From Agromyces cerinus (lineage in GTDB: Bacteria > Actinomycetota > Actinomycetes > Actinomycetales > Microbacteriaceae), in assembly GCF_016907835.1 (NCBI RefSeq), contig NZ_JAFBCT010000001.1, positions 496,001-560,000 on the forward strand: a DNA stretch of 64,000 bases, in the 5' to 3' direction. The notes beneath the pieces were generated by a model, which saw only the letters and a program-made list of their open reading frames with translations, was not told where the DNA came from and ran no database searches. Positions 1 to 64,000 of the stretch are shown piece after piece; position 1 is the stretch's first letter; every line of letters starts with the position of its first letter. Both the position numbers and the translations under genes were made by a program.

Positions 1-693
1 GCGCACGACCACGGGGATCATGAGGAGCGAGAGCGCGACGGCGCCGGCGATGCCGGTGCGGGTGCCGGGGCCCAGGAAGATCGCGAACAGCGAGTAGGCG
101 AAGAGGCCGGCGACGATCGACGGGATGCCCGTCATGACGTCGACGAGGAAGGTGACGCCGCGGGCGAGCCTGCCACGTCCGTACTCGACGAGGTAGATCG
201 AGGTCATGAGGCCGATCGGGATCGAGATCACCGCGGCCGCGCCCGTCATGAGCAGGGTGCCGACGATCGCGTGCACGATGCCGCCGCCCTCGCCCGTGAC
301 GTTGCGCATCGACATCGAGAAGAAGTCGGCGTCGAAGCGGGCGGCACCGAGGCTCACGACCGTGATGCCGAGCGAGACGAGCGGGATCATCGCGAGCAGG
401 AAGGCGCCCGTCACGAGCGCGGTGACGAGTCGGTCCATCGCCCGGCGGCGACCCTCGACGAGCGTCGAGAACAGCCAGATGGCCGGGATGTAGAGGAGTG
501 CGCCGATGAAGAGCGCCCCGCCCCAGTTGTAGCCGGAGCCGGAACCGAAGGAGACGACGCCGAACACCGCGGCGGAGACGGCGACGGCGGCGACGAGGAT
601 CGTCCACGGCGCCGACTTCGGGAGTCGTCCGGCGGTCAGCGAGTTGGCGATGGCGACGCCGGTCTCGGGAGCCTGAGTGGTCTGGATGGTCAT
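1..693 (-). CDS. pstA: Phosphate ABC transporter permease PstA (3' end cut by window edge)
   Basis: Inner-membrane permease of the high-affinity phosphate importer PstSCAB. The 231 codons visible from the start are open to base 1, so the C-terminus lies outside the window. Hydrophobic segments fall near residues 30-50, 58-80, 90-115 and 138-168. They are followed by the permease coupling-loop region (VDVMTGIPSIVAGLF) expected to contact the ATPase. The ATG overlaps the pstC stop by one base (TGATG), so translation is probably coupled. pstB should follow beyond the edge. Identity rests on family resemblance plus position behind pstS and pstC. Confidence 0.93.
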   Translation of the reverse strand, partial: MTIQTTQAPETGVAIANSLTAGRLPKSAPWTILVAAVAVSAAVFGVVSFGSGSGYNWGGALFIGALLYIPAIWLFSTLVEGRRRAMDRLVTALVTGAFLLAMIPLVSLGITVVSLGAARFDADFFSMSMRNVTGEGGGIVHAIVGTLLMTGAAAVISIPIGLMTSIYLVEYGRGRLARGVTFLVDVMTGIPSIVAGLFAYSLFAIFLGPGTRTGIAGAVALSLLMIPVVVR

Positions 694-1631
694 CAGTTGG
701 CTCCCGAGAATTCCTTGCGGCGGCTGACGATCCAGCGCGCGAAGGCGTTGACCGCGAAGGTCACGACGAAGAGGATGAGGCCGGTGGCGATCAGGACGTT
801 GACGTTCAGTCCGTACGCCTCGGGGAAGCTGAGCGCGATGTTCGCCGCGATCGTGTTCGGGTTGACCGAGGTCAGCAGCTGGAACGTGATCACCGGCGAG
901 GCGGAGAGCACCATCGCGACGGCCATCGTCTCGCCGAGCGCACGGCCGAGGCCGAGCACCGAGGCGGAGATGATGCCGGAGCGGCCGAAGGGCAGCACGG
1001 CCGTGCGGATCATCTCCCAGCGCGTGGCGCCGAGGGCGAGGGCGGCCTCCTCGTGCAGCACGGGCGTCTGCAGGAACACCTCGCGGCAGATCGCGGTCAT
1101 GATCGGCAGCACCATGACGGCGAGCACGAGGGCCGCTGTCAGGATCGTGCGGCCCGTGGCCGAGGGGGTGCCGCTGAAGAGGGGGATCCAGCCGAGGTAC
1201 TCATTCAGCCAGGCGTAGGCGTCGACGAGGGCCGGAGCGAAGACGCCGATGCCCCACAGGCCGAAGACGACCGATGGCACCGCTGCGAGGAGGTCGACGA
1301 CGTAGCCGAGCACCGAGGCGAGCCGGCGCGGAGCGTAGTGCGAGATGAAGAGCGCGATGCCGATGGAGATCGGCAGGGCGACGAGGAGCGCGAGGGCGGC
1401 CGCCCAGACCGTGCCGAAGACGAGCGGACCGACGTAGTCCCAGAAGTTCGTCTTGAGGATGGAGGCGTCTTCGGTCGTGGCCACCACCGCGGGGATGCTC
1501 TGCACGATGAGGAAGATGGCCACCGCTGCCAGGGTGACGAGGATCATCGATCCCGCGAACACCGCCGAGCGGGAGAAGACGAGGTCGCCGATGCGGAGCT
1601 TCGTCTTGATCGGGGCCGGTGCGGACGTCAT
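693..1631 (-). CDS. pstC: Phosphate ABC transporter permease PstC
   Basis: Second permease of the phosphate importer, 312 residues with about six membrane segments; the first is near residues 25-47. The frame is open further upstream. I chose the ATG giving MTSAPAPIKTKLRIGDL because a GAGGA ribosome site lies upstream at normal spacing and the upstream extension is arginine-rich and unlike the family. The coupling-loop motif VDLLAAVPSVVFGLWGI is present. The gene lies between pstS, about 90 bases upstream, and pstA, which it overlaps by one base, in a single minus-strand operon. Confidence 0.94.
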   Translation of the reverse strand: MTSAPAPIKTKLRIGDLVFSRSAVFAGSMILVTLAAVAIFLIVQSIPAVVATTEDASILKTNFWDYVGPLVFGTVWAAALALLVALPISIGIALFISHYAPRRLASVLGYVVDLLAAVPSVVFGLWGIGVFAPALVDAYAWLNEYLGWIPLFSGTPSATGRTILTAALVLAVMVLPIMTAICREVFLQTPVLHEEAALALGATRWEMIRTAVLPFGRSGIISASVLGLGRALGETMAVAMVLSASPVITFQLLTSVNPNTIAANIALSFPEAYGLNVNVLIATGLILFVVTFAVNAFARWIVSRRKEFSGAN

Positions 1632-1722
1632 CTGGTGCGATCCTCGGAGTTCTTGAGTCGGGTTCTGGAGACGCGATCGTGCCCGACCCCGTCGCGGACG
1701 ATCGAGGTCGGGCACGAACCTA

Positions 1723-2814
1723 CTACTGGATCGAGTCGATCGCAGCAGTGATCTTCTCGCGGAGCGAGTCCGAGATCGGAGCCGAACCGGCGTCAGCCGC
1801 TGCGGTGTCCTGGCCCTCGGGGCTCGCGATGTACGAGAGGTAGCCCTTGACGAGGTCGACGTTCGCCGGGTCCTCGTACTGGCCGCACGCGATGAGGTAG
1901 CTCACGAGCACGATCGGGTAGACGCCGGCCTCTTCCGAGGTGCGGTCGATCTCGATGGCGAGGTCGCCCTCGGCACGGCCTTCGGCGAACGGCGAGTGGT
2001 CGACGATCGCGGCAGCAGCCTCGGGGGAGTACGGCACGAACTCGTCGCCGACCTTGATCGAGACGGTGCCGAGGTCGCCGGCGCGCGAGGCGTCGGCGTA
2101 GCCGATGGTGCCGTTGCCGTTGCTCACGGCGTCGACGAGACCGGAGGTGCCCTGTGCGGCTTCGCCGCCTTCGAGCGGCCACACGCCGTCGGCTTCCCAG
2201 GTCCACACGTCAGCCGCTGCTGCGCCGAGGTACTCGGTGAAGTTCTCGGTGGTGCCCGAGTCGTCCGAGCGGTGCACGGGCGTGATGGCGAGGTCGGGCA
2301 GCGTCGCGTCGGGGTTCGTCGCGGCGATCGCCGGGTCGTTCCACTTCGTGATCGTGCCGGCGAAGATGCCGGCGACGGTTGCTGCGTCGAGGTCGAGCGT
2401 GTCGACGCCCTCGACGTTGAAGATGACCGCGATCGGCGAGATGTAGAGCGGCAGCTCGACGATGGTCGAGTCGGCGGCGCACTTCTTGAAGCCGCCCGCG
2501 GCGAGCTCCTCGTCCTTGAACGCACGGTCGGAGCCGGCGAAGTCGCTGGCGCCTTCGAGGAAGGTCTCGCGACCTGCACCCGATCCGGAGGGGTCGTAGT
2601 CGACGGTGACGTCGGGGTTCGCGGTCTGGAAACCGGCGATCCACGACTGCTGGGCCGCATCCTGCGAGGACGCGCCCGCGCCGACGAGGTTGCCCGAGAG
2701 CGTCGATGCCGACTCCGACGGAGCTGCGCCGCCTTCGTTCGTGGCACAGGAGCTGAGCGCGATCGCCGCAGTGACGGCGATGACGGCGGGCACGCCGAGA
2801 CGCTTGAGGTTCAC
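1723..2814 (-). CDS. pstS: Phosphate-binding lipoprotein PstS
   Basis: Extracytoplasmic phosphate receptor that feeds PstCA. It has 363 residues with a lipoprotein signal ending in LSSC (Cys23), so it is lipid-anchored outside the membrane. Phosphate-site motifs are visible: GAGASSQDAAQ, DPSGSGAGRETF and HRSDDSGTTENF. The start is GTG with GGAAGGGA upstream. It is the first gene of pstSCA and follows a PHO box about 90-110 bases upstream, so phosphate-starvation induction through RegX3 is likely. Confidence 0.95.
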   Translation of the reverse strand: MNLKRLGVPAVIAVTAAIALSSCATNEGGAAPSESASTLSGNLVGAGASSQDAAQQSWIAGFQTANPDVTVDYDPSGSGAGRETFLEGASDFAGSDRAFKDEELAAGGFKKCAADSTIVELPLYISPIAVIFNVEGVDTLDLDAATVAGIFAGTITKWNDPAIAATNPDATLPDLAITPVHRSDDSGTTENFTEYLGAAAADVWTWEADGVWPLEGGEAAQGTSGLVDAVSNGNGTIGYADASRAGDLGTVSIKVGDEFVPYSPEAAAAIVDHSPFAEGRAEGDLAIEIDRTSEEAGVYPIVLVSYLIACGQYEDPANVDLVKGYLSYIASPEGQDTAAADAGSAPISDSLREKITAAIDSIQ

Positions 2815-2904
2815 GTGAATTCCCTTCCGGGGTTCGATTGCAGGTTGTGGGCCGGTGCCGACCCGCCTGCGACGCTAATGAGCGCGCCTTACGAGCATCC
2901 GTTA

Positions 2905-3044: not shown

Positions 3045-3980
3045 TCAGGCGCGGGGTGCGTGCGTCTCGATCGCGATGATGCCTGACCCCGGGCTCGTGG
3101 CCGAGAGGTGCACGACACTGAACGCACCGGTCTCGAGGCCCGCGGCATCCGTCACGTAGGAGCCGAGCGGCGTGCCGGTGGCGAGGGCCACCTCGCGCAT
3201 GATCTCGGGCAGCACCGGGCCGTGGCTGCAGATGATCGCGCTCCTGCCGGCGCGCACCCGCTTGCCGACGACGCGACGGACCTCGTCTTCGCCGGCCTCC
3301 CAGGCGTCTTGGCTGATGCCGGCGTCGCGCTTGATCTCGAGGCCCGCAGCCGCGGCGAGCGGGGTGACCGTCGTCACGCAGCGCACTGCCGGACTCGACA
3401 CGATGCGCTTCGGCGCCCATGCGCCGAGCGTCGCGACGAGGCCCGCAGCCTGCTCGACACCCCGCTCGGTGAGCGGCCGTGTCGCGTCGTCACCGGGCCA
3501 CGACGAGCGGCCGACGGCCTTGCCATGACGCACGACGGCGAGCGCGAAGGTCGAGGTGACCCCTTGGTCGACGAGCGTCGCGAAGGCGTCGAGGATCTCG
3601 ACGTCGGGCTCGTAGCTCAAGTAGGTGCGCGCACGCTTGATGGTGACCCACTCGAGCGCGGCCACCTCGGCGTTGGGTTTGAAGGTCGAGCGCTGCACGG
3701 CCCGATCGCTCACCTCGGCGGCCCAGTAGTGCACGATCTTCTCGCGTCCGCTCGGCAGCGGATAGCGGGAGACGCCGAGCGGCGCGCCGAGCGCGACGGA
3801 CAGCCCGGTCTCCTCCTCGATCTCGCGTACGGCGGTCTGCGGCAGGGATTCGCCCGGGTCGACCTTGCCCTTGGGGATCGTGACGTCGCCGTAGACGGTG
3901 CGGTGGATCACCAGCACGTGCACCTTGCCGTCGATGAGGCGCCAGCAGACGGCCCCCGCGGCGTAGATCGCCGTCGTCAA
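3045..3980 (-). CDS. mutT1: NUDIX hydrolase-histidine phosphatase fusion, MutT1 type
   Basis: Two domains in 311 residues. The N-terminal NUDIX domain carries the full Nudix box at residues 38-60 (GKVDPGES...REIEEETGL). The C-terminal histidine-phosphatase domain begins at about residue 146 with catalytic RHG at 151-153. Mycobacterial MutT1 has this architecture and cleans 8-oxo-dGTP/8-oxo-GTP; that activity is inferred here. The start is TTG and overlaps the ppk stop by four bases (TTGA), so it is co-translated with ppk. Hydrolysis of diadenosine polyphosphates is an alternative role. Confidence 0.85.
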
Positions 3981-6169
3981 CGCCTGGAACCCGATCGTGG
4001 GCGCTGCCCTGAGCGGGTGCGCTGGCCGATCTGCTGCATGAGCCTATTCTGCATGTCGTCGAGCGGATGCCCCGCCTCGTCGGTCGCGTGGCGGATCCAT
4101 TCGCCCGAGCCGTCGAGCCACCATGAGCTCGTGGTCTCGGCCATCGCGAGGTCGAAGAGTGCGTCGATCTCGGTCAGGTGGCTCGGATCGGCGAGGCGCA
4201 CGAGCGCCTCGACCCGACGGTCGAGGTTGCGGTGCATCATGTCGGCCGAGCCGATGTAGACCTGCGGGTCGCCGTCGTTCAAGAACGAGAAGATGCGCGA
4301 GTGCTCGAGGTAGCGGCCCAGGATCGACCGAACCGTGATGTGCTCGCTGAGGCCGGGGATGCCGGGGCGGAGGCTGCAGATGCCGCGCACCCACACCTCG
4401 ACCGGCACGCCCGCGTTGGACGCCCGGTAGAGCGCGTCGATGATCGCCTCGTCGACGATGGAGTTCATCTTGATGCGGATGCCGGCCGGGCGGCCTGCCT
4501 CGGCATTGGCGATCTCGCCCGCGATGAGCTTCAGGAGGCCCTTGCGCAGGTGGAGCGGGGCCACGAGCAGTCGCTTGAACTTCTTCTCGATGGCGTAGCC
4601 CGAGAGCTCGTTGAAGAGCCGGGTCAGGTCTTTGCCGACCTGGTCGTCGGCGGTGAGCAGGCCGAGGTCCTCGTAGATGCGGCTCGTCTTCGGGTTGTAG
4701 TTGCCCGTGCCGATGTGGCTGTAGTGACGCAGGCCTCCCTTCTCCTGACGGATCACGAGGGCGAGCTTGCAGTGCGTCTTCAGCCCGACGAGGCCGTAGA
4801 CGACGTGCACACCGGCCTTCTCGAGCTTGCGCGCCCATGAGATGTTGGCCTGCTCGTCGAAGCGCGCCTTGATCTCGACGAGGGCGAGCACCTGCTTGCC
4901 CGATTCGGCCGCGTCGATGAGCGCCTCGACGATGGGGCTGTCGCCCGAGGTGCGGTAGAGGGTCTGCTTGATCGCGAGCACGTCGGGGTCGGCAGCGGCC
5001 TGCTCGAGGAAGGCCTGCACGCTCGTGGCGAAGGACTCGTAGGGGTGGTGAAGCAGCACGTCTTGACGCGAGATCGCCGTGAACACGTCGGCCCGGAGGT
5101 TCGAGTCGCTCGGCTGCAGTTGCAGCGCGGTCGTCGGCACGTGCGTCGGGTAGTGCAGTTCGGGGCGGTCGAGCCGCGAGAGGTCGAACAGGCCGCCGAG
5201 GTCGAGCGGCGCAGGCAGGCGGAAGACCTCCTGCTCGGTGACGTCGAGCTCGCGCACGAGCAGGCCGAGCGTCACCTCGTCCATGTCGTCGGTGATCTCG
5301 AGGCGGATGGGCGGGCCGAACCTGCGGCGCAGCAGCTCCTTCTCGAGCGCCTTGATCAGGTTCTCGGTCTCGTCCTCCTCGATCTCGACGTCTTCGTTGC
5401 GCGTGACGCGGAACACGTGGTGCTCCACGATCTCCATGCCGGGGAAGAGGTCGCCGAGGTGGTTGGCGATGAGGTCTTCGAGCGTGATGTACCTGGCGTC
5501 CTCGATGGACTCGCCTGGGTCGACGCGCACGAACCGCGGCAGCATCTGCGGCACCTTGACGCGCGCGAACTCCTGTCGGCCGGTGCGGCTGTTTCGCACA
5601 CGCACCGAGAGGTTCAGCGACAGACCCGAGATGTAGGGGAACGGATGGGCGGGGTCGACCGCGAGCGGCATCAGCACGGGGAAGATCTGCTTCGAGAAGT
5701 AGTCGCGCAGGTGCTCGTGCTCGACGTCGCCGAGCTCGCCCCAGGTGATGATGCGGATGCCGGACTCGGCGAGCGTGGGCTTGACGAGCTGCTGGTACGC
5801 GGCTGCGTGCCGCTCCTGCAGTTCGTGCGCCTTCGCCGAGATGTCGCTCAGCACGTCGAGCGGCGAGCGGCCGACGTTCGTGGGCACGGCGAGGCCCGTG
5901 ACGATGCGCCGCTTCAGCCCGGCGACACGCACCATGAAGAACTCGTCGAGGTTCGACGCGAAGATCGCGAGGAAGTTCGCCCGTTCGAGCACGGGCACGC
6001 GAGGGTCTTCGGCCAGCTCGAGTACGCGCTGGTTGAACGCGAGCCAGCTGAGTTCGCGGTCGAGATAGCGTTCGGATTCGAGTTCGGGTGCGCCTTCGAG
6101 GTCGAACGGCTCGAAGTCGTCGTCGAAGTCGCTCGACGTGCGGTCGTCGAGGATGCTGTCGGCGGTCAT
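3977..6169 (-). CDS. ppk: Polyphosphate kinase 1
   Basis: Reversibly polymerises the ATP gamma-phosphate into polyphosphate. At about 730 residues it is full length for PPK1. The N-terminal domain runs from [21 protein letters not shown], followed by the head domain and two phospholipase-D-like catalytic domains. The loop [19 protein letters not shown] matches the region of the phosphorylated histidine. I take ATG 6169 as start; GTG 6175, two codons upstream, is also open. A weak -10 (CATGAT) six bases before ATG 6169 would allow leaderless translation. It lies in a phosphate-related neighbourhood with pst and mutT1. Confidence 0.95.
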
Positions 6170-6979: not shown

Positions 6980-7291
6980 TTGGACCAGACCGAGACGAGC
7001 AGCGGATGGCTCGGGATCGCCGTCGTCTGGGCGATCGCGCTCATCGGGTCGATCGTGATCGTGACGCTGGCCTACTCCGGGACCGCGGCCTGGTTCGGGG
7101 ACGCGTCGCGCCTCGGCGTCTACGGTGCGCTCGGCATCGTGCTCGCGGCATCCGTGATCGGAGCGCTCATCGTGCAGCTCGCGACGCGACGTCCCGAGGG
7201 CTTCGTGCTGCGCGTGAGCTGGAGCATCACCGGAGCCGCCGCGATCGTCGCGATCGCCGCGCTCGTGGTCGCGCCCATCGCGACCGCGTGA
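6980..7291 (+). CDS. Small three-helix membrane protein of unknown function
   Basis: 103 residues with hydrophobic segments near 10-30, 47-66 and 75-100 and no recognisable catalytic motif. The start is TTG with GGGGAGA upstream at suitable spacing. It is divergent from glnR and precedes another very small membrane protein. Similar small membrane proteins occur beside YgfZ/nitrobindin-type genes in related actinobacteria as far as I recall. Function unknown. Confidence 0.7.
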
Positions 7292-8055: not shown

Positions 8056-9221
8056 TGATGGAATCCCCGTTCCTCGCACTCCCCGGAGCCGTCGCGGCTG
8101 CGCCCGGGGGCGTCGACACCGGCGTCGCCGGTCACTACGGCAACCCCATCGTCGAGCAGCGTCACCTCGAGCGCGGCGACGCGATCGTCGACCTCTCGAA
8201 CCGCGGCGTCGTGACCGTCACCGGCCCCGACCGACTGTCGTGGCTGCACTCCATGGCCAGCCAGGCGCTCGCGCGCCTGCAGCCCGGAGAGGGCACCGAA
8301 GCGCTGCTGCTCGACGCGTCGGGCAGGGTCGAGCACGCCGCGCACGTGATCGACGACGGCGAGACGACCTGGCTCATCGTCGAGGGCGACGAGGCCGCGG
8401 GCATCGCCGCATTCCTCGATCGCATGCGCTTCATGCTGCGCGTCGAGGTCGCCGACGCGAGCGGCGACGTCGCCGTGCTCGGCGCCATGTCGACGTCGGC
8501 GCTCGACGCCGCGACTCCGGCTTTCGCCCCTGCAGGCGTCGCACTCGACTGGGTCGACCCGTGGGCGCACCCTCGCCCCGGCGGCCACCAGTACGCCCAC
8601 GACGCCGGCCACCCGGCATCCGACTGGCACTGGATCGAACGCATCGTGCCGCGCACCGCGCTCGCCGAAGCGGCCGCCGCCGTGCGGGCGGGGTCCGTCG
8701 ACGCGGCGGGCTCCCTTGCGGCCGAGGCGCTCCGGGTCGCCGCGTGGCGCCCGCGACTCGCGACCGAGGTCGACGACCGCACCATCCCGCACGAGCTCGA
8801 CTGGCTGCGCAGCGCGGTCGATCTCGGCAAGGGCTGCTACAAGGGCCAGGAGACGGTCGCCAAGGTGCTGAACCTCGGCCGGCCCCCGCGCAGGCTCGTG
8901 CTGCTGCACCTCGACGGCAGCGACACCGTGCTGCCGGCGCCGGGCGACGAGGTCGTCGGCGAGAAGGTGCGCCCCGAACCTGCAGCGGGCGAAGCACCCG
9001 AGCGCAAGGTCGTCGGCCGCATCACCACCGCGGTGATGCACCACGAGCTCGGCCCGGTCTCGCTCGCGGTCGTGAAGCGTGCGGTGCCTGCCGACCTGCC
9101 GCTCATCGTGCTGAGCCACGGCACCGAGATCGCGGCCGCACAGGTCGAGATCGTGCCGGCCGATGCGGGCGCGGCCGTCGAGGTGCCGCGGCTCCCTCGT
9201 CTCGGCGTGCACAAGGGGTAA
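8055..9221 (+). CDS. ygfZ: Folate-binding YgfZ/GcvT-like protein
   Basis: 388 residues with the YgfZ hallmark KGCYKGQE near residues 259-266, including the redox-active Cys. The family is a tetrahydrofolate-dependent factor for maintenance or assembly of certain iron-sulfur proteins. The N-terminal half carries the aminomethyltransferase-like fold (VTVTGPDRLSWLHSM). The ATG overlaps the preceding stop by one base. A second ATG immediately follows, so the exact start is uncertain by one codon. Confidence 0.9.
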   Translation: MMESPFLALPGAVAAAPGGVDTGVAGHYGNPIVEQRHLERGDAIVDLSNRGVVTVTGPDRLSWLHSMASQALARLQPGEGTEALLLDASGRVEHAAHVIDDGETTWLIVEGDEAAGIAAFLDRMRFMLRVEVADASGDVAVLGAMSTSALDAATPAFAPAGVALDWVDPWAHPRPGGHQYAHDAGHPASDWHWIERIVPRTALAEAAAAVRAGSVDAAGSLAAEALRVAAWRPRLATEVDDRTIPHELDWLRSAVDLGKGCYKGQETVAKVLNLGRPPRRLVLLHLDGSDTVLPAPGDEVVGEKVRPEPAAGEAPERKVVGRITTAVMHHELGPVSLAVVKRAVPADLPLIVLSHGTEIAAAQVEIVPADAGAAVEVPRLPRLGVHKG

Positions 9222-9250
9222 CCTCGCGCCGGCGACGGATGCCGCGCCGG

Positions 9251-17957: not shown

Positions 17958-18051
17958 GGCTTCTCGGTGACGCCGGCGGGCAGCAGTCCGTCGGCGTTCC
18001 CCGGGATCGCGCGTGCAGCTCTGGCGTGGCGGCGGCGGGCGGATGCCGCGA

Positions 18052-19491: not shown

Positions 19492-19523
19492 CGTCGTGAT
19501 CGGATGCCTCCCGCGGATACGGC

Positions 19524-22039: not shown

Positions 22040-22040
22040 C

Positions 22041-37589: not shown

Positions 37590-37641
37590 GCCCGGTGCCC
37601 GAGGCATCCGTCGACACGAACACGACTCGTGAGGAACCCGC

Positions 37642-49435: not shown

Positions 49436-49474
49436 GCGGATGCCTCGGCGCAGCTCGACGACGAAGGAGGCCGC

Positions 49475-54324: not shown

Positions 54325-55529
54325 CCAGCACCGCACCCGCCACCGCACCGCGCATCGAGGCGATCGAGCTGCACCGCATCGAGGTGCCGCTCGTGCGCCC
54401 GTTCGAGACGAGCTTCGGCCGCGAGACCGTGCGCGAGGCGCTGCTCGTGCACGTGCGCACCGACCTGGGCGACGGATGGGGCGAGTGCGTCGCCGGCCGC
54501 GACCCGTTCTACTCCGCCGAATACGTCGGGGGAGCGGCATCCGTCATCGAACGCTACCTCGCGCCGGCACTGCTGGGTGCGACGGCCGACGGCGCGACCC
54601 GTGCCGTACGGGGCGCCGAGTCGGCCGACGCCAGGTCGGCGGGCGTGCCGCTCGCGGCATCCGTCGCGCCGGCGCTCGCCTTCGTCGCCGGCCACCGCAT
54701 GGCGAAGGGGGCCATCGAGGCCGCGGTGCTCGACGCCGAACTGCGCGCGCAGGGCCGCTCGATGGGCGAGGCGTTCGGCGCCGTGCGCGACTGGGTGGAC
54801 TGCGGCGTCTCGGTCGGCATCGCCCCGACGCTCGAGGAGCTGCTCGACGAGGTCACGGGGTACGTCGAGGAGGGCTACCGCCGCATCAAGCTGAAGATCA
54901 AGCCCGGGTGGGACGTCGTGCCGGTCGGCGCGGTGCGTGAGCTGCTCGGTCGCGACGGGCTGCTGCAGGTCGACGCGAACACGGCGTACACCGCCGACGA
55001 CATCCCGTTGCTCGCGAGCCTCGACGCGTTCGGGCTGCTGCTCATCGAGCAGCCGTTCGCCGAGGAGGACCTCGCCACCCACGCGCTGCTCGCGAGCGCG
55101 TGCGAGACGCCCGTGTGCCTCGACGAGTCGATCCTCGATGCCGCGACCGCGGTCGACGCGATCGAACGGGGTGCGACCTCGGTGGTCAACATCAAGCCCG
55201 GTCGCATGGGCGGCTACCTCGAAGCGCTGCGGGTGCACGACGCCTGCCGTGCCCTCGACGTGCCCGTGTGGTGCGGCGGCATGCTCGAGACCGGCATCGG
55301 CCGGGCCGCGAACGTCGCCCTCGCCGCACTGCCCGGCTTCGTGCTGCCGGGCGACACCTCGGCGTCGTCGCGCTACTACGCCGACGACGTCACCGATCCG
55401 TTCGTGCTCGGCACGGGCGAGCACCGCGGGCAGCTCCGGGTTCCGGATGCCCCGGGCACGGGCGTCGCCGTGCGCGACGACCTCGTGCGCGAGTGGGCGA
55501 GCGCGCCGCCGATCACGCTCACGCGCTGA
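54321..55529 (+). CDS. Enolase-superfamily MenC/N-acylamino-acid racemase
   Basis: 402 residues. MLE-subgroup active site intact: KxK in RIKLKIKPGWD, metal ligands in VDANTAY, IEQPF and LDESI, second base in NIKPGRMGGY. The family includes o-succinylbenzoate synthase (menaquinone) and N-succinylamino-acid racemase. No other men genes are nearby, and translational coupling to a GNAT favours racemase; dual activity is possible. Confidence 0.8.
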   Translation: MTSTAPATAPRIEAIELHRIEVPLVRPFETSFGRETVREALLVHVRTDLGDGWGECVAGRDPFYSAEYVGGAASVIERYLAPALLGATADGATRAVRGAESADARSAGVPLAASVAPALAFVAGHRMAKGAIEAAVLDAELRAQGRSMGEAFGAVRDWVDCGVSVGIAPTLEELLDEVTGYVEEGYRRIKLKIKPGWDVVPVGAVRELLGRDGLLQVDANTAYTADDIPLLASLDAFGLLLIEQPFAEEDLATHALLASACETPVCLDESILDAATAVDAIERGATSVVNIKPGRMGGYLEALRVHDACRALDVPVWCGGMLETGIGRAANVALAALPGFVLPGDTSASSRYYADDVTDPFVLGTGEHRGQLRVPDAPGTGVAVRDDLVREWASAPPITLTR

Positions 55530-56373
55530 GGAGCGAGGCCGCGCGTTCTCCGATCGCCGCGGCGGACGCCGCGCGCCGCGGGTCGTCGTCGATCGCGAAC
55601 CAGGTCGACGAGAGCGCGCACCAGGCGACGAGCCACCGCGCGAGCCTCGCCTGCTCGATGCCGCTCGCCTCGACGACCACGTCGAACTGCCGTTCGAGTC
55701 GGCCGGGGCGCAGCGCCCGCTCGGGCGAGGGGTTGCAGAGCAGGTTGCAGTAGTCGAAGCCGGCTTCGCCGACGAGCCCCTTCGGATCGATCGCGAGCCA
55801 GCCGCGCTCACCGAAGTCGAGCACGTTGCCGTGGTGCAGGTCGCCGTGCAGCACGACCGGGTCGCGGGGGGCGTCGAGCAGCGCCTGTGCGATGTCGGCG
55901 CCGCGCCGGTGCAGTGCTCCGAGCCCGTCGGCCGCCGCGAAGAGCTCGCGGAACCACGTCGGCAGGTCGATCAGCTCGGGCGGCTCGGCGCGTTCGAGCA
56001 CGAGAGCGGATGCCGCGTGGATGCGGCCGGCCGCCGCGCAGATCGTGCGCGTTGCCTGGTCGTCGCCGCCGTCGGCGACCATGCGCACGAGGTCGCGGCT
56101 GCCGGTCGCACGCTCGAGGAGCAGGGCCTCGTCGCTGTGGGCGAGCACTCGCGCGGCGCCGTGGCCGGCGAGGGCGACGAGCAGTCCGGCGCCGCGCTCC
56201 TCCTCGTCGGTGTGCGCGAGCTTCAGCATCGCCGGCACGCCGTCGCTCGTCTGCACGGGGATGAGCCGGCTCGACGCCGTCGTCACGGGTTCGCCGTCGG
56301 GGCGCAGGCGCCAGTGCCGCAGCCAGGCGGCATCGCCGGCGAATCCGGGGTTCACCGGTCCGAGGTCGCTCAC
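55519..56373 (-). CDS. APH-like small-molecule kinase (streptomycin 6-kinase family)
   Basis: 284 residues. Kinase-fold HGDLHHGNVLDFG (catalytic Asp/Asn) and AIDPKGLVGE (metal Asp) as in APH(6)/hydroxyurea phosphotransferases. Start GTG 56373 overlaps the upstream LigD-type gene by four bases. Its 3' end overlaps the convergent menC-like gene by 11 bases. A drug substrate is only a guess; such genes are often housekeeping-like in actinobacteria. Confidence 0.8.
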   Translation of the reverse strand: MSDLGPVNPGFAGDAAWLRHWRLRPDGEPVTTASSRLIPVQTSDGVPAMLKLAHTDEEERGAGLLVALAGHGAARVLAHSDEALLLERATGSRDLVRMVADGGDDQATRTICAAAGRIHAASALVLERAEPPELIDLPTWFRELFAAADGLGALHRRGADIAQALLDAPRDPVVLHGDLHHGNVLDFGERGWLAIDPKGLVGEAGFDYCNLLCNPSPERALRPGRLERQFDVVVEASGIEQARLARWLVAWCALSSTWFAIDDDPRRAASAAAIGERAASLLSA

Positions 56374-57605
56374 TGGCGATTCCACTCCTTGTCGGCCCAG
56401 GGGTCGTAGTCGATCTCGAGCGGCTCCTGCTCGGGTCGCTGCGGCTCGGGCACGTGCTGCAGGTTCACCCGGATTCGGTACCAGAGCGACGAGCTGCCGC
56501 GCATGCCGTCGACGAGCACGTCGGCGGGGTGGAGGAGGGCCACGACTCCGGAGTGCCGGGCCTTCCAGCGTTCGAGCCCCTCGAGGGCCTCGGCCTTGGT
56601 CTCGGCGCGCGCGATCTCGATGAGCGGCATGGTCGATGCGCGGCGCCCCGAGCCGTCGGAGGACTTCGGTGGCTTCTCGGCCGGGCCGAGCTCCTCCGCG
56701 AGGGCGAGCAGCCCCTCGAGGCCGCCGACGGCGTCGTCGATGCCGGCCGCAGGGTCGCCGCGCTCGGCGAACCGCTCGAGCACGGTCGGCACGGTGAATC
56801 GCTCGGGGTGGCTGCCGCGCACCTCGTCCCAGTCGAGCGGCGTCGAGACGCGCGCATCGGGCAGGGGCCGGATCGAATAGGCCGAGGCAACGGTGCGGTC
56901 CTTCGCGTTCTGGTTGAAGTCGACGAAGACGCTCTCGCCCCGCTCCTCCTTCCACCACCTCGCCGAGGCCATGCCGGGCGCCCGGTTCTCGACCTCGCGA
57001 GCGAGCGTCTCTGCGGCGAGCCGCACCTCGCGGTAGTCCCATCTCGGTTCGATGCGCACGTTGATGTGCAGCCCGCGGGAGCCGGAGGTCTTCGGCCAGC
57101 CGACGAGTCCGTGGTCGGCGAGCACCTCGCGCGCGACCATCGCGACGTCGATGATCTGCGCCCATTCGACGCCCGGCATGGGGTCGAGGTCGACGCGCAG
57201 CTCGTCGGGGTGATCGAGGTCGGAGGCACGCACCGGGTGCGGGTTGAGGTCGAGGCATCCGAGGTTCACGACCCAGGCGAGCGCAGCGGCGTCGCGGATC
57301 ACGACCTCTTCGGCCGAGTTGCCCGAGGCGTAGTGCAGCGTCGCGGTCTCGATCCAGTCGGGCCGCTTCTCGGGGGCGCGCTTCTGGAAGAAGGCCTCCT
57401 GGTCGATGCCCTTCACGAAGCGCTTCAACACCATCGGCCGCCCGCCGGCGCCGCGCAGGGCGCCTTCGGCGACGGCGAGGTAGTACCGCACGACGTCGAG
57501 TTTCGTGAGGCCCGGCTCGGGGAACACGACCTTGTCGGGGCTGCTGATGCGCACCTCTCGGTCGCCGATCTGCAGCACCTCGGCCGTCGACGCCTTCGGG
57601 CTCAC
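56370..57605 (-). CDS. Stand-alone LigD primase-polymerase domain protein
   Basis: 411 residues. Archaeo-eukaryotic primase-type polymerase of bacterial NHEJ: DEYRVDLDP-like metal site (RVDLDPMPG), SGSRGLHINVRI and FVDFNQNAKDRTVASAYS. No ligase or nuclease domain is present, so it is the PolDom type as in separate actinobacterial proteins. No ku gene is nearby. Start GTG 57605 with GGGGAG; TAGTGT seven bases before the GTG is a leaderless -10 candidate. Co-translated with the APH-like kinase. Confidence 0.87.
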   Translation of the reverse strand: MSPKASTAEVLQIGDREVRISSPDKVVFPEPGLTKLDVVRYYLAVAEGALRGAGGRPMVLKRFVKGIDQEAFFQKRAPEKRPDWIETATLHYASGNSAEEVVIRDAAALAWVVNLGCLDLNPHPVRASDLDHPDELRVDLDPMPGVEWAQIIDVAMVAREVLADHGLVGWPKTSGSRGLHINVRIEPRWDYREVRLAAETLAREVENRAPGMASARWWKEERGESVFVDFNQNAKDRTVASAYSIRPLPDARVSTPLDWDEVRGSHPERFTVPTVLERFAERGDPAAGIDDAVGGLEGLLALAEELGPAEKPPKSSDGSGRRASTMPLIEIARAETKAEALEGLERWKARHSGVVALLHPADVLVDGMRGSSSLWYRIRVNLQHVPEPQRPEQEPLEIDYDPWADKEWNRQ

Positions 57606-57651: not shown

Positions 57652-58584
57652 TCAGGCGGATGCCGCCGGCGACTCGGCGGGGGCCGCGGCGGCCGCGGCC
57701 GCGGCCGCACGAGCGTACCGCCGCGGCGTCTCGCCGATCACGGCGCGGAACTGGCGGGTGAAGTGCGCCTGGTCGGAGAAGCCGAGATCAGCGGCGAGTT
57801 CGGCGAGCGACGGCGGCTCGGCGGCCACGAGCGCCTGCGAGGCCTCCTGCATGCGGTAGCGCCCGATGAGCCACTTCGGCGTGAGGCCGAGGCGGCCGCG
57901 GACCAGCCGCTCGAGCGCGCGAAGACCCAGCCCCGACGCTGCCGCGAGCTCGTCGGCCCGAACGATCGACCGGTCGGTCTCGGCGAGCTCCACGACTCGC
58001 CGCAGGAGCGCGGCATCGTCATCGAGCTCGATGCGCTGGGCCCGTAGCCACGATTCGAACACGGCGACGGCGGATGCATCGTCGCCGGCCTCGACCGCAG
58101 CGCGCACCTGCTCGGCGAAGCCGGCGGCATCCGTCACCCGCAGGGCATCGAGCCAGACCGACGAGCCGACGATCTCGCGCACGGGGCCGGGCGCGAGGCG
58201 GTGCGCGACGCCGGGCTGCAGCAGCACGCCGAACGCCCACCCCTCGCCCTCGAGGCGCTGGTGACTGCGCCCGAGCTCCGGTCCGTAGAGCGCCGCCGCG
58301 TGCCGTTCGACGACGAGGTTCGCCGACGGGTAGTCGAGCACGCCCTGCTCGACGACGATGCCGGGCGGCAGCCGCCAGCGGGGGATCCAGATGTGGCGCA
58401 CGAGCCCCTCGAGGTCGGTGCTCACGGCGTGACGGGCGAGTCGCACGGGTGCGTCGTCGGCGGCAGCCTGTGCTGCGGCCGCCGACGCGAGCGGGGCGAT
58501 GCCGGGTTCGCCGTGCCGACCGGCGAGCACGCCCTTCGTGGCTGCGCCGGCGCGCGAACGCCAGTAGTTCTCACCCGTCTGCAT
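57652..58584 (-). CDS. AraC-family transcriptional regulator
   Basis: 310 residues. N-terminal cupin-like sensing part and a C-terminal AraC double helix-turn-helix (LAELAADLGFSDQAHFTRQFRA region; GETPRRYAR close). An Ala/Pro tail ends the protein. Divergent from the AHSA1 gene with 142 bases between, a likely target. Confidence 0.88.
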   Translation of the reverse strand: MQTGENYWRSRAGAATKGVLAGRHGEPGIAPLASAAAAQAAADDAPVRLARHAVSTDLEGLVRHIWIPRWRLPPGIVVEQGVLDYPSANLVVERHAAALYGPELGRSHQRLEGEGWAFGVLLQPGVAHRLAPGPVREIVGSSVWLDALRVTDAAGFAEQVRAAVEAGDDASAVAVFESWLRAQRIELDDDAALLRRVVELAETDRSIVRADELAAASGLGLRALERLVRGRLGLTPKWLIGRYRMQEASQALVAAEPPSLAELAADLGFSDQAHFTRQFRAVIGETPRRYARAAAAAAAAAPAESPAASA

Positions 58585-59717: not shown

Positions 59718-59738
59718 CCGGCGCGCCCGCGTTCCCAC

Positions 59739-61205
59739 TCAGTCCGAGTGGCCCGCCTCCCCTGAGGGAAGTCGCTCGCTGACGTGCCGGGGACGACCCG
59801 CGAGGAACCGCATCGACAGGCCGGCGACGAGCGACCCGAGACCGCCCTGCAGGAGGTCGCCGAGGGAGTCCGCGTACCCGGTCAGGATCTCCGGGTCGAG
59901 GTAGGTGCGGCCGAACCACTCGAAGAACTCCCAGAGCACGCCGAGTGACAGGCCGAGCGCCGTGACCATGAGCGCGGCCGAGAGCACGGGGCGCGGGAGC
60001 GTTTCGGCGTCGGCGAGCACGTGGAATCGCACGAGCACGACGTAGAGCATCGCCGCGACGATGCCGTTGGTGAAGAAGTGCATGGGGAGGTCCCACCAGC
60101 GCGCCGCGATGAAGAGTCCGAGCACGCTGCTCCAGGTCGAGAGGAGCACCGCCGTGCCGAAGAGGATGTCGAAGGCGGGCCGGACTCGGAGCAGTCGGGG
60201 GACGAGCATCGCGGCCGACGCCGCCACGAAGCTCAACCCCGAGAGCGGGCCCCAGCCGATGCCTGCCACGACGATGCTGAGCACGCGGAGCACGTCGCCG
60301 ACGATCTCGGCCGGTCCTTCGGGGCGCCGCAGCGAGGTGCGGATCATGCCATCAGACGAGATCGTCGGGCGAACCGCGGGGCGGAGCACGGCCTGCACCG
60401 GTTCATGGTCGGATGCCGCCCGGCCGTCGAATCTCGCTGCGTTCACCCCGGCGCGGAGCACGTCGACCCGTCGACCGACGAGGATGCGATCGATGCGGCT
60501 GCCGCCCGGGCGCGGCGCGCGGTAGTTCGAGTAGGTTCCCCACGGCGGCGTCAGCCGCTCGGACGCGGCGTCCCAGGCGTCCCGCAGCGCTCCCTCCGCC
60601 GTCAGGCGGCGCGTGACCGCGGAGCCGGCACCCGCGTTGAAATCTCCGGTCACGACGATCGCCGCATCGGGGTCCGCGGATTCCGCCTGCAGCACGAGGT
60701 TGAGGATCATCGCCGCAGATGCGAGCCTCGAGCGCCCGGAGACGTGATCGAGATGGGTGTTGAAGACGATCAGTGCCGACCCTGTCGCTGTGTCGGTGAA
60801 CTCGGCCGACACCACGATGCGACGTGTGAGGTTGCCGAACGACCGCGAGCCGGGCGCATCCGGAGTTGCGGACAGGGCCCGCTGGCGCCACGCGGTCAGC
60901 TCGAGCCGGTCGGCGTCGTAGAAGATCGCGCAGTGCTCGCCGCCGCCCGTGGCGCTGCGGCCGCGACCGACCCGTCGATACCGCGATCCGTGGGCGCCCG
61001 CGACCGCGTCGACCTGGTCGGCGAGTGCCTCCTGCACGCCGAGAAGCGTCGGCTGCTCGGCCCGCAGCAGACGCCGGACGAGCGGGGCACGCGCATTCCA
61101 GCGGTCGGGACTCCCCGGCAGCGCGGTGGTGCGCCGCCGGACGTTGAACGTCATGACGTGCACGTCGGGCGCGCTCACCGGGCCGATCAGCGCGGCATCG
61201 GTCAT
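59739..61205 (-). CDS. Endonuclease/exonuclease/phosphatase domain fused to a membrane domain
   Basis: 488 residues in one uninterrupted frame. N-terminal EEP domain (about 10-270): metal site N in MTFNVRRRT, GVQEAL, catalytic VTGDFNAG and SDHEPVQAV. C-terminal membrane domain (about 300-470) with several helices and GVLWEFFEWFGRTYLD, similar to YjdF/DUF2238-type proteins. No stop separates the parts, so they form one polypeptide. Combination uncommon; role unknown, perhaps a membrane-tethered nuclease or phospholipase/phosphodiesterase. Confidence 0.8.
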   Translation of the reverse strand: MTDAALIGPVSAPDVHVMTFNVRRRTTALPGSPDRWNARAPLVRRLLRAEQPTLLGVQEALADQVDAVAGAHGSRYRRVGRGRSATGGGEHCAIFYDADRLELTAWRQRALSATPDAPGSRSFGNLTRRIVVSAEFTDTATGSALIVFNTHLDHVSGRSRLASAAMILNLVLQAESADPDAAIVVTGDFNAGAGSAVTRRLTAEGALRDAWDAASERLTPPWGTYSNYRAPRPGGSRIDRILVGRRVDVLRAGVNAARFDGRAASDHEPVQAVLRPAVRPTISSDGMIRTSLRRPEGPAEIVGDVLRVLSIVVAGIGWGPLSGLSFVAASAAMLVPRLLRVRPAFDILFGTAVLLSTWSSVLGLFIAARWWDLPMHFFTNGIVAAMLYVVLVRFHVLADAETLPRPVLSAALMVTALGLSLGVLWEFFEWFGRTYLDPEILTGYADSLGDLLQGGLGSLVAGLSMRFLAGRPRHVSERLPSGEAGHSD

Positions 61206-61283
61206 GCGCCCAGCGTACGCATCCGCAGTGCACGGGCGGGGACCTTCCGTGCGAACGGATGGCCCGCCCGGATGCCGCGTCGC

Positions 61284-61289: not shown

Positions 61290-61295
61290 CGCCGC

Positions 61296-63203
61296 ATGGC
61301 TGATGACGCGGTGAAGCAGGCTCAGGAGGCCGCTGCGGCAGCGGCAGAGGCGGCGAAGGCGCTGCAGGCGCAGGCCGAGGAGGCGATGCGCAAGGCCGAG
61401 GAGGCCGCCGTGCTCGCGAAGGCCGCCGCCGAGGCCGCGACGACGGCAACCGTGACGGAGGGCGCGACGGCAACCGTGACGGATACCGCGGTCTCCGAAG
61501 CCGTGCCGGCACCGACGGCACCCGCGGCGCCTGCGGCCGCGGCGCCCGCCTCCGACGCATCCGGCCCGCTCGACCAGGCCCAGGTCGATGCGATCCGAGC
61601 CGGTTACGAGCTGGACGGCGCCGCCCTCGAGATCGGCGCACTCGTCAACGGCGAGGCGCTGCCCGACGTGCCGGTGCGCATTCCGCTCGCGATGACGAAC
61701 CGGCACGGGCTCGTCGCCGGTGCGACCGGCACCGGCAAGACCCGCACGCTGCAGGTGCTCGCCGAGCAGCTCTCGGCCCATGGCGTGGCCGTCTTCGCCG
61801 CCGACATCAAGGGCGACCTCTCGGGCGTCGCGACACCGGGCGAGGGCAACGAGAAGCTGCTGGCGCGCACCGAGGGCATCGGCCAGCGGTGGAGCCCCGC
61901 GAGCTTCCCGACCGAGTTCTACTCGCTCGGCGGCGTCGGCCGCGGCGTGCCCATCCGGGCGACGATCTCGGGATTCGGCCCGCTGCTGCTCTCGAAGGCG
62001 CTCGGCCTCAACGAGACGCAGGAGTCGAGCCTCGGCCTCGTCTTCCACTACGCGAACGAGCACGGCCTCGCACTGCTCGACCTCGAAGACCTGCGGGCGG
62101 TGCTCGCCTACCTCGTGAGCGACGAGGGCAAGCCCGAGCTCGAGGGGCTCGGCGGCCTGTCGAAGGCGACCGTCGGCGTGATCCTGCGGGAACTCATCAC
62201 CTTCGCCGACCAGGGCGCCGACGTCTTCTTCGGCGAACCCGAGATCGACACGGCCGAGTTCCTGCGCGTGGCCGCCGACGGCCGCGGCGTCATCAGCCTG
62301 CTCGAGGTGCCGGGCGTCGCCGACAAGCCGGCGCTCTACTCCACGTTCCTCATGTGGCTGCTCGCCGACCTCTTCACCGACCTGCCCGAGGTCGGCGACG
62401 TCGACCAGCCGAAGCTCGTCTTCTTCTTCGACGAGGCGCACCTGCTCTTCGCCGATGCCTCGAAGGACTTCCTCGCCCAGATCACGCAGACGGTGCGACT
62501 CATCCGCTCGAAGGGAGTGGGTGTCTTCTTCGTCACCCAGACCCCGAAGGACGTGCCGGCCGACGTGCTCGCTCAGCTCGGCTCGCGCGTCCAGCACCAG
62601 TTGCGCGCCTTCACGCCCGACGACGCGAAGGCGCTGCGCGCGACGGTCTCGACGTATCCGAGGTCGGGCTACGACCTCGAAGAGACGCTCACGATGCTCG
62701 GCACGGGCGAGGCGATCGTCACGGTCATGAACGAGAAGGGCGCCCCGAGCCCCGTCGCGTGGACGCGGCTGCGAGCGCCGCAGGCGTCGATGTCGCCGTC
62801 GCCCGATGCCGCGATCGATGCGGCCGTCGCTGCATCGCCGCTCACCGCGAAGTACAGCACCGGCATCGACCGCGAGTCGGCGCACGAGATCCTCACGAAG
62901 AAGCTCGCGGATGCCGCGGCGAGGGTCGACGCCGAAGAGGCGGCGGCCGCGAAGGCGAAGGCCGATGTCGAGTTCGAGAAGATGCAGGCGAAGATCCGAG
63001 CGGATGCCGCGAAGGCCGACAAGAAGGCGCAGGCCGAGTTCGACCGGCTCATGAAGCAGACCTCGGGCACCTCGCGGTCGCGCTCGCGCTCGTCGCAGTC
63101 GAAGGAGCGGTCGGCGCTCGAGCAGGTGCTCGGCTCGAAGACCACGCAGAACGTGCTGACGAGCGTCATCACCGGCCTCTTCGGCATGGCCAGGCGCAAG
63201 TAG
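61296..63203 (+). CDS. HerA/DUF853-type (YjgR) ATPase
   Basis: 635 residues. Ala-rich coiled coil at 1-50, Ala/Pro/Thr linker, then a HerA-like ATPase with Walker A GATGTGKT (about 143-150), DIKGDLSG and Walker B FFFDEAHLLF (about 378). A C-terminal coiled coil (about 530-585) is rich in Ala/Lys/Glu, followed by a Ser/Arg stretch. The family is a putative DNA translocase with no established role. Divergent from the EEP fusion; a GNAT follows 29 bases later. Confidence 0.88.
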   Translation: MADDAVKQAQEAAAAAAEAAKALQAQAEEAMRKAEEAAVLAKAAAEAATTATVTEGATATVTDTAVSEAVPAPTAPAAPAAAAPASDASGPLDQAQVDAIRAGYELDGAALEIGALVNGEALPDVPVRIPLAMTNRHGLVAGATGTGKTRTLQVLAEQLSAHGVAVFAADIKGDLSGVATPGEGNEKLLARTEGIGQRWSPASFPTEFYSLGGVGRGVPIRATISGFGPLLLSKALGLNETQESSLGLVFHYANEHGLALLDLEDLRAVLAYLVSDEGKPELEGLGGLSKATVGVILRELITFADQGADVFFGEPEIDTAEFLRVAADGRGVISLLEVPGVADKPALYSTFLMWLLADLFTDLPEVGDVDQPKLVFFFDEAHLLFADASKDFLAQITQTVRLIRSKGVGVFFVTQTPKDVPADVLAQLGSRVQHQLRAFTPDDAKALRATVSTYPRSGYDLEETLTMLGTGEAIVTVMNEKGAPSPVAWTRLRAPQASMSPSPDAAIDAAVAASPLTAKYSTGIDRESAHEILTKKLADAAARVDAEEAAAAKAKADVEFEKMQAKIRADAAKADKKAQAEFDRLMKQTSGTSRSRSRSSQSKERSALEQVLGSKTTQNVLTSVITGLFGMARRK

Positions 63204-63232
63204 CGGTCTCGAGCGTGCGGAAGGATGGACGC

Positions 63233-63847
63233 ATGCCCGAGATCCGCCCGTACCGCCCCGCCGACCGCGAGCAGGTCGCGCGGGTCTGCCTGCTGACGGC
63301 GGCCGGCGGCGGGGACGCCACCGGGGTCTACTCCGACGACACCCTGATGCCCGAGGTGTTCGCGCTGCCCTACGTCGAGTACGCGCCGGAGCTCGCCTTC
63401 GTCGTCGCCGATGGCGATCGCGTGCTCGGCTACGTGATCGGGGTCGCCGACACCGCCGCTTTCGCCCGGTGGTGGAAGCGTGAGTGGGGCCCCGCATTCG
63501 CCGCGCGGCATCCGTCGCCCGGTGCCCCGACCGGCCGTGAGCCGGCCTTCACCGAGGCGCAGCTCATCGAGGCGGGCACCTCGCCCGATCGCATGCTCAT
63601 CGCCGAACTCGCCGAGTACCCGGCGCACCTGCACATCGACCTCCTCCCCGAACTGCAGGGCCGGGGGTTCGGGCGCCGCCTCATCGAGACGCTGCGAGCC
63701 GCCCTCGCCGAACGGGGCGTGCCGGGGGTGCACCTCGGCATGGACGCCGCGAACACCGGCGCGCGTCAGTTCTACGACCGGCTCGGATTCCACGAACTGC
63801 CGTCGAGCCGCGCCGATTCGCCGCTGCTCGGCATCGCGACGCGCTGA
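63233..63847 (+). CDS. GNAT acetyltransferase (OGA C-terminal type)
   Basis: 204 residues. Acetyl-CoA motif LLPELQGRGFGRRLIETL and AANTGARQFYDRLGFHEL. Resembles the GNAT domain found with O-GlcNAcase in eukaryotes and stand-alone copies in actinobacteria. Substrate unknown. The start ATG has AAGGA about 7 bases upstream. Confidence 0.85.
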   Translation: MPEIRPYRPADREQVARVCLLTAAGGGDATGVYSDDTLMPEVFALPYVEYAPELAFVVADGDRVLGYVIGVADTAAFARWWKREWGPAFAARHPSPGAPTGREPAFTEAQLIEAGTSPDRMLIAELAEYPAHLHIDLLPELQGRGFGRRLIETLRAALAERGVPGVHLGMDAANTGARQFYDRLGFHELPSSRADSPLLGIATR

Positions 63848-63969
63848 TCTCAGCCCGAACCTGCCGGGAGCCCGAATAAAACCGGTGGTCGGTGCTGGCG
63901 GCGTCGGGCGACGGCGGGCTACGGTCGGCACAGGATGTCACCGAGCGATGCCGGTCCGAAGGGAGCACC

Positions 63970-64000
63970 ATGCTGGCAGCAACCGCCCCATCGACGAGAA
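63970..64000 (+). CDS. First codons of a gene running off the window
   Basis: ATG at 63970 with GAAGGGA six bases upstream opens a frame of ten codons (MLAATAPSTR) before the edge. Nothing more can be said about the product. Confidence 0.4.
   Translation, partial: MLAATAPSTR

Follow-up and report, generated by a model that had tools for sequence, protein, structure and literature searches.

A short non-palindromic word abundant in Microbacteriaceae genomes: a candidate uptake-sequence-like tag with several dialects

To our knowledge, uptake sequences are known only from the Neisseriaceae and the Pasteurellaceae, the two families that are also named in the abstracts retrieved, and in the uptake signal sequence (USS) of the latter a core is accompanied by extended flanks and inverted pairs. 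The DNA uptake sequence (DUS) of the Neisseriaceae exists as eight dialects that share a conserved CTG core and number 943 to 5,918 copies per genome; the sections of that study available to us also describe one genome that combines two dialects, one dialect with an insertion and five members of the family in which no DUS is obvious (Frye et al., 2013; PMC3630211). The USS comes in two main dialects, and excerpts of the relevant report describe phages rich and phages poor in the word, with temperate phages long associated with Pasteurellaceae gaining uptake words and others not (PMC6776037). Another abundant genome word, the cyanobacterial highly iterated palindrome HIP1, has alternates in some species, according to the accessible part of PMC4390886. 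Here we describe an octamer, CGGATGCC (reverse complement GGCATCCG; hereafter the word, with copies given for the + and - strands), noticed during a sequence-only reading of a 64-kb window of Agromyces cerinus. The window is the whole stretch from 496001 to 560000 of the genome, a single contig of 3,977,730 bp. By its anatomy the word resembles DUS and USS, and on this ground and by comparison among genomes we regard it, with modest confidence, as the probable genomic tag of an independently evolved, uptake-sequence-like self-recognition system in the Microbacteriaceae.

We counted 51 copies of the word in the window (25 + 26), in agreement with the sequence-only reading, which had counted about 50, 25 each way, against a zero-order expectation of about 5. 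Markov models of orders 0 to 4 predict 5.4, 6.3, 7.5, 7.4 and 16.7 copies and place the word 27th, 2nd, 1st, 1st and 1st for over-representation out of 13,591 octamer pairs. The hexamer GGATGC/GCATCC, put at 92 copies against 43, was recounted at 103 against 42.7 expected. Under the maximal order, 6, little excess is left (51 against 44.1, rank about 1,015), as the excess is shared by the heptamers within the word. The over-representation is real and larger than first stated, as the whole genome contains 1,594 + 1,589 copies (3,183, about one per 1.25 kb). The reversed word occurs 106 + 114 times, but since it contains TAG this control is set too low, and the Markov and shuffle tests serve better as yardsticks. 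A 464-kb sample was made of the window and 20 evenly spaced 20-kb stretches of the same genome, in which a simple purpose-made gene finder predicted 443 genes. The sample contains 377 copies against 57 expected (order 3). A codon-aware control, proposed by the sequence-only reading, led to the same conclusion: synonymous-codon shuffling of the coding part gave 50.6 copies (standard deviation 6.2, maximum 63, 30 shuffles) against 305 observed, a 6-fold excess, and 2.5 copies of the extended 13-mer RRCGGATGCCKCG against 110 observed, a 43-fold excess.

This 13-mer is the consensus that emerges from the flanks of the word in the 464-kb sample, where the two preceding positions are R in 74% and 73% of copies and the three following ones are G or T (84%), C (85%) and G (77%). 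CGGATGCCGC and AGCGGATGCC occur 188 and 78 times against 10.0 and 2.6 expected. The core is sharp: two of the 24 single-base variants exceed 2-fold (CGGATTCC, 2.8; CGGATGTC, 2.4), compared with 6.65-fold for the word itself. Copies are found in genes (305), between genes (69) and at gene edges (3), and are denser in intergenic (1.39 per kb) than in coding DNA (0.74 per kb), with intergenic densities of 1.77, 1.58 and 0.95 per kb between co-directional, convergent and divergent genes, respectively. Observed and expected counts in the six frame and orientation classes (142/3.8, 20/0.9, 90/13.7, 7/0.9, 40/27.7 and 6/4.0) correspond to a 6.6- to 37-fold excess in four of them and a 1.4- to 1.5-fold excess in the other two. 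Most of the coding excess falls in GCG-GCA-TCC-G and GCG-GAT-GCC, the two settings in which the word had been thought to override codon choice. The early estimate of eight or more non-coding copies also held, with 8 copies of the window lying outside or at the edge of predicted genes.

A test of 21 stretches from across the genome gave no regional strand skew for the word (chi-square 16.6), bearing out the early remark that it is unlike the FtsK orienting polar sequences (KOPS). Sites less than 50 bp apart are more frequent than expected in the 464-kb sample (30 against 14.2), and the neighbouring pairs less than 120 bp apart (n = 48) comprise 24 head-to-head (+,-), 10 (-,+) and 14 tandem arrangements. 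Some close pairs form the palindrome GCGGATGCCGCGGCATCCGC, and in others a long stem encloses a small loop; five pairs, chosen by look, fold with z of -4.1 to -8.9 into predicted terminator-like hairpins. The sequence-only reading had also proposed a hairpin at 31817-31858 of the window. The inverted pair exists, but its hairpin is weak, as 18 of 200 shuffles fold equally well or better (z -1.4). The distribution has gaps as well: 10 of 116 4-kb blocks are free of the word against 4.5 expected, and four of these lie in a single 20-kb stretch (810001-830000 of the genome) that holds one word against a mean of 16.3 over the 20 stretches. Reading of its proteins identified this stretch as a surface-polysaccharide biosynthesis cluster, and an Rfam scan of it returned no match.

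We extended the counts to 249 genomes of one family (85 genera, own genome included), presumably the Microbacteriaceae to judge from the best CysS matches of named loci (Herbiconiux, Microbacterium, Gulosibacter and others). Genomes and loci are cited below by G and L numbers. The word ranges from 17 copies (G196, 59% complete) to 4,093 (G142, from the genus of the window), with near-equal strands. CGGATGCCNCG occurs 2,203 times in the own genome and at most 77 times (G261) in 111 genomes from 19 other families of the order; the family member G164 has 59 only. Enrichment of the word within the order is restricted to this one family. The family comparison suggested by the sequence-only reading found enrichment of the word within the Microbacteriaceae, though not in every member, and related dialects in part of the family. 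Literature searches on the word itself, and on uptake sequences of this family or of Actinobacteria, gave no description of such a word in the family among the records listed.

The dialects were examined in 40 kb from each of 39 other family genomes and the own genome, a sample that covers poor, intermediate and rich counts (G004 left out), and the top octamer of each genome was ranked by the order-3 model. GGAT is part of the top octamer in 18 of these 40 genomes, own included. The leading form is CGGATGCC in G000, G006 and G190, GGATGCCG in G063, G227, G215, G145, G009 and G127, and GGATGCCC in G137. Further forms lead in one genome each: GGATGCTG in G148 (47 against 3.2 expected), GGATGCGC in G100 (31 against 4.8), GTGGATGC in G118 (24 against 3.6), GCGGATCC in G164 (31 against 7.7), GCAGGATC in G047 (15 against 3.7), GTGGATCG in G051 (10 against 1.2), TCCGGATC in G096 (9 against 0.2) and AGCGGATC in G005 (18 against 2.6). 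The dialects counted at 9 to 18 copies have a weak basis. With respect to these forms, CGGATGCCGCG is the own-dialect version of the word, and CGGATGCTGTC and GCGGATCC are other-dialect versions. A separate 20-kb stretch of G164 contains 16 copies of GCGGATCC, compared with 0 to 3 in the stretches of seven other genomes. The leading heptamer of G034, CGGATCC, reaches 66 copies against 25.1 with an uneven spread (48 and 18). An additional GGAT-core dialect may be present in L115, from the Microbacteriaceae metagenome-assembled genome (MAG) JR-MC, where CGATGGAT occurs 14 times against 1.2.

Whole-genome counts of CGGATGCG are highest in a Herbiconiux MAG (1,183 + 1,136), followed by G118 (988 + 969), G100 (776 + 757), Gulosibacter hominis (553 + 555) and two Microbacterium genomes (520 + 484 and 324 + 324); the own genome has 301 + 280, and Arthrobacter, Brevibacterium and Nocardioides have 147 to 271 per strand. 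This form also recurs about every 33 bp at 314816-315246 of the own genome (C1), probably as a tandem repeat in a gene. A switch between dialects is visible within a single genus, g2, in which CGGATGCTG outnumbers CGGATGCC in G148 (1,562 against 537) and G085 (1,943 against 835) and is outnumbered by it in G199 (946 against 1,286), G244 (1,030 against 1,141) and G001 (316 against 1,864). The own genome has no excess of CGGATGCTG (53 + 55 against 65 + 58 for its reversed control). G148 and G199 are 82% identical across a 20-kb stretch, and the ten CGGATGCTG sites of G148 align in G199 with GGATGCCG at three, GGATGCTG at three and GGATGCGC at one, the core being lost or gapped at the other three. 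Conversely, the five CGGATGCC sites of G199 align in G148 with the same word once and with CGGATGCTG twice; two are broken by gaps. Thus, a site that persists keeps its core, but its suffix may switch. Between species of this genus the CTG and CC dialects swap prevalence, partly at orthologous sites.

Sites are also retained beyond what their codons would predict. G142 has syntenic orthologs of 30 window genes (79% mean amino-acid identity), and 10 of the 17 aligned word sites are intact. Codons with their third base in the word are identical at 35 of 40 positions, where their rate of identity outside the word predicts 19.0; none of 20,000 draws was as high. By codon, GCA is kept at 6 of 7 positions in the word and 15 of 72 elsewhere, and TCC at 6 of 7 and 26 of 60. 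The conservation of synonymous sites proposed as a check is therefore strong in this congener, the nearest of the relatives compared, and it weakens in other relatives, as described below.

Of the three options offered by the sequence-only reading, the uptake-like one is the best supported, given the sharp core with its extended consensus, the lack of orientation bias, the intergenic excess, the head-to-head pairs and the dialects with a common core; the architecture option is retained as a rival, and the methylase option is weakened as far as the PF01555 enzyme is concerned. We infer a receptor, preferential uptake and a drive that could operate as follows. A cell-surface DNA receptor would prefer DNA with RRCGGATGCCKCG during uptake by a Com/Flp-pilus route. 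DNA of the same kind would then enter and recombine more often, word alleles would displace wordless ones, and the word would build up over long times wherever the protein sequence permits. Should the specificity of the receptor drift, the genome would follow and a new dialect could arise in which the contact core, GGAT(G)C, remains. Whether this is the first actinobacterial uptake-sequence system and, as far as literature searches show, the first in any Gram-positive bacterium is a nearly balanced judgement that tips slightly towards yes. In such a system a surface receptor of the Com/Flp route would have shifted in specificity repeatedly, also inside a single genus, and the whole genome would have followed; at least four dialects are well counted (CGGATGCC, CGGATGCTG, CGGATGCG and GCGGATCC) and several are weaker.

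Machinery for DNA import is widespread in the family. ComEC (PF03772) is present in 245 of 249 genomes and PF00437 ATPases in 45 of 45. The own genome has three PF00437 matches over the family cut-off, and around one of them (2906001-2921000) lies a Tad/Flp-type pilus cluster with T2SSE, two T2SSF, ParA-like, RcpC-like (just below cut-off) and Tad-domain proteins. The window itself encodes an ATPase (61296-63203, +) with weak resemblance, below cut-offs, to HerA and to the archaeal DNA-import proteins CedD and CedB. Flp-pilus-dependent transformation is described in Micrococcus luteus, and a term search of the accessible text of that report did not turn up uptake sequences for this species (PMC4322843). 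Natural transformation is reported, in the part of PMC11577799 available, for two Microbacteriaceae, Rhodoluna lacicola and Aurantimicrobium photophilum; this text is silent on any preference for sequence.

Several observations weigh against an uptake-sequence system. No reader protein of the word was found, in an analysis that included no search for ComP, the minor pilin that reads the neisserial DUS. ComEC and PF00437 are nearly universal and therefore do not separate word-rich from word-poor species, and ComEC was rejected as a discriminator. A type IV pilus was rejected as a marker too, since its proxy, a full-length PilB-like ATPase (a PF00437 match at E 1e-135 or better), is found in 19 of the 45 genomes with no correspondence to the abundance of the word. 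The word-rich genomes G079, G240, G227, G215 and G106 have no PF00437 match better than E 1e-46 (best 4.0e-42 in G079 and 4.3e-41 in G240), and the best match of the own genome is 6.5e-66. The transformable species of PMC11577799 are small-genome freshwater types, and five of the six sampled genomes below 2 Mb have no GGAT word on top. The same is true of 22 of the 40 sampled genomes overall, and in eight (G013, G015, G017, G024, G030, G035, G059 and G221) no GGAT octamer ranks above 33rd. CGGATGCTG is not confined to g2, as it reaches 161 + 159 copies in G106 (reversed control 40 + 40), the maximum in 21 other genomes, and stands a few-fold over its reversed control in several others.

Retention and distribution add to these points. 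In G240, 4 of 16 sites are intact and 19 of 33 codons are kept against 13.2 expected (206 of 20,000 draws as high; GCA alone 1 of 8 against 3 of 67). In G079, 3 of 16 sites are intact, and codon retention is not significant (14 of 24 against 10.7; 1,678 of 20,000 draws). Eight more distant genomes (20 kb each, some with other dialects) keep 0-2 of 6-10 aligned sites. Taken with G142, the pattern indicates that sites are kept over short times and turned over across long times. Composition-atypical 4-kb blocks are only weakly poorer in the word (rho -0.19, p 0.039), and the density in window genes is the same (0.72 per kb) whether all three congeners have a syntenic ortholog or none does, so that a difference between core and accessory genes was rejected. 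Phages did not serve as simple negatives either. The small phage Efeko (L240; host Microbacterium paraoxydans) carries 9 copies of CGGATGCC against 1.1 expected and 19 of GGATGCC against 3.5, whereas the excess is absent from the other three of the four phages (Min1, 6 against 3.9; half of the Icarian genome, 0 against 1.2; half of the Buldak genome, 1 against 2.5). One rich and three poor phages, a small number, fit the pattern described in the available text on Pasteurellaceae (PMC6776037). An uptake word would be scarcer in recently acquired DNA, and on this the signs are mixed, with the one-site polysaccharide cluster and the three poor phages on one side, Efeko and the even density of window genes on the other, and a weak trend in the 4-kb blocks.

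Among other explanations, a HIP-like process, in which the word would be generated and preserved by an orphan DNA methylase together with a repair process linked to it, as proposed for HIP1 and its alternates, is in our view unlikely. Methylases typically have short targets of the kind of GGATG and GGATC. HIP1, too, has its alternates, and all 30 family genomes examined have a PF01555 methylase match, at E 1e-40 or better in 28. However, CGGATGCC is non-palindromic, and the methylase does not change with the dialect: across five aligned genomes (G000 and G240 with the word, G148 with the CTG dialect, and G178 and G224 with top octamers lacking GGAT) it is 73-84% identical overall with a nearly invariant central region, and the match is weaker (1.7e-28) in G100 despite its strong GGATGCGC dialect. 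On the five genomes compared, the conserved PF01555 enzyme is an unlikely writer of the dialects and was rejected as such. PF02086 (2 of 30 genomes) and PF00145 (14 of 30) are sporadic, Type I and other methylase families lying outside the search. Further, one-mismatch neighbours of the word span 0.58 to 2.82 of expectation; no single precursor is therefore strongly depleted, and depleted repair substrates were rejected. The PF01555 methylase of the own genome (L241:9797-10684, -, near 3.068 Mb) is perhaps a core orphan methylase.

We give equally little credence to a site for an abundant nucleoid or chromosome-architecture protein, independent of orientation and selected for coverage of the chromosome. 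Such a role would agree with the genome-wide spread without strand skew, the intergenic excess and the retention of codons at sites in G142. It accords poorly with a density that varies in the family from near background to >4,000 copies, with a dialect that differs between species of one genus and with a 20-kb polysaccharide cluster holding one site; head-to-head hairpins and a whole-genome switch of dialect would also be unexpected for a conserved essential protein. A polar signal for replication, segregation or repair, like KOPS or Chi, is very improbable and was rejected, because a word that is suitably short, abundant and non-palindromic lacks strand bias in the 21 stretches and is split almost evenly between the strands in the family genomes counted. 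An origin as a side effect of composition, or of a preference for certain codons or dipeptides, is the least credible of all, even if the maximal-order model does not single out the word, and was rejected by the excess over synonymous shuffles, the higher density between genes and the 6.6- to 37-fold excess in four of six frame and orientation classes.

Table 1. Copies of the word in the 64-kb window (positions within the window; + is CGGATGCC, - is GGCATCCG)
Feature	Position	Strand	Remark
Inverted pair in gap between genes	31817..31858		GGCATCCG 31817-31824, CGGATGCC 31851-31858; weak hairpin
Word	3144..3151	-	
Word	4064..4071	+	
Word	4476..4483	+	
Word	5754..5761	+	
Word	7147..7154	-	
Word	8615..8622	-	
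Word	9236..9243	+	intergenic or edge
Word	11220..11227	-	
Word	13479..13486	+	
Word	14859..14866	-	
Word	15935..15942	+	inside cysS
Word	16773..16780	-	inside cysS
Word	17909..17916	-	
Word	18040..18047	+	intergenic or edge
Word	19501..19508	+	intergenic or edge
Word	22763..22770	-	
Word	23203..23210	+	
Word	23557..23564	-	
Word	26354..26361	-	
Word	31817..31824	-	intergenic, left arm of inverted pair
Word	31851..31858	+	intergenic, right arm of inverted pair
Word	34201..34208	-	
Word	35455..35462	+	
Word	37603..37610	-	intergenic or edge
Word	37926..37933	-	
Word	39426..39433	+	
Word	39489..39496	+	
Word	39706..39713	+	
Word	40401..40408	+	
Word	41465..41472	-	
Word	41695..41702	+	
Word	43260..43267	-	
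Word	48620..48627	-	
Word	49010..49017	-	
Word	49437..49444	+	intergenic or edge
Word	51367..51374	-	
Word	52237..52244	-	
Word	54078..54085	-	
Word	54179..54186	+	
Word	54536..54543	-	
Word	54656..54663	-	
Word	55444..55451	+	
Word	56007..56014	+	
Word	57254..57261	-	
Word	57657..57664	+	
Word	58126..58133	-	
Word	60410..60417	+	
Word	61269..61276	+	intergenic or edge
Word	62908..62915	+	
Word	63001..63008	+	
Word	63507..63514	-	

Other abundant words came to light during the counts. The 464-kb sample contains a second over-represented word, CGGACTC/GAGTCCG (180 against 45.4, order 3), and 29 copies of GGGGGAGT against 4.0. Within the family, unrelated words are abundant in G035 (L039-L040; CCGCGCCTCC, 17 against 0.6), G087 (L053-L054; GGCGCAGGA, 16 against 1.7) and G010 (L049-L050; CACCGATG, 19 against 3.6), and G045 (L041-L042) has a dispersed repeat with TCTCGATACG. 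In other families, sampled at one 21-kb locus each, CCTCGGCG occurs 40 times against 8.1 in Brevibacterium (L126) and CGTACGCC 22 times against 3.5 in Nocardioides (L128).

If the word is indeed an uptake tag, it would be a third independent case of an uptake word, this time in the Actinobacteria, with a series of dialects and a genus in mid-switch. It would then offer a comparative test of how uptake words originate, of receptor-genome co-evolution and of barriers to gene exchange between species, as well as a practical rule for transforming Microbacteriaceae. Even with a methylase or a nucleoid protein as reader, the switching of a word across whole genomes within a genus would be an unexplained kind of genome evolution.

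Set beside the described systems, the word shares its short and very abundant nature and its alternates in relatives with HIP1, as far as the latter is covered by the text available (PMC4390886). The HIPs differ in being palindromic and in having word-specific methylases, whereas CGGATGCC is asymmetric and the methylase compared does not follow it. The likeness to the USS lies in two main family dialects and in word-rich and word-poor phages, as described in excerpts of PMC6776037. A core with extended flanks and inverted pairs is likewise common to both; word, phylum and flank composition differ. The likeness to the DUS, within the accessible sections of PMC3630211, is close: a word of about 10-13 bp on both strands in thousands of copies (3,183 falls within the DUS range), dialects with a common core in one family, genomes with two dialects, members without the word, and a dialect with a one-base insertion, matched here by GCGGATCC relative to GCGGATGCC. 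The differences are another phylum, another word and a Gram-positive host, and the neisserial type IV pilus has no counterpart here by the full-length PilB-like proxy. Of the systems compared, the uptake-sequence dialects of the Neisseriaceae appear to fit best.

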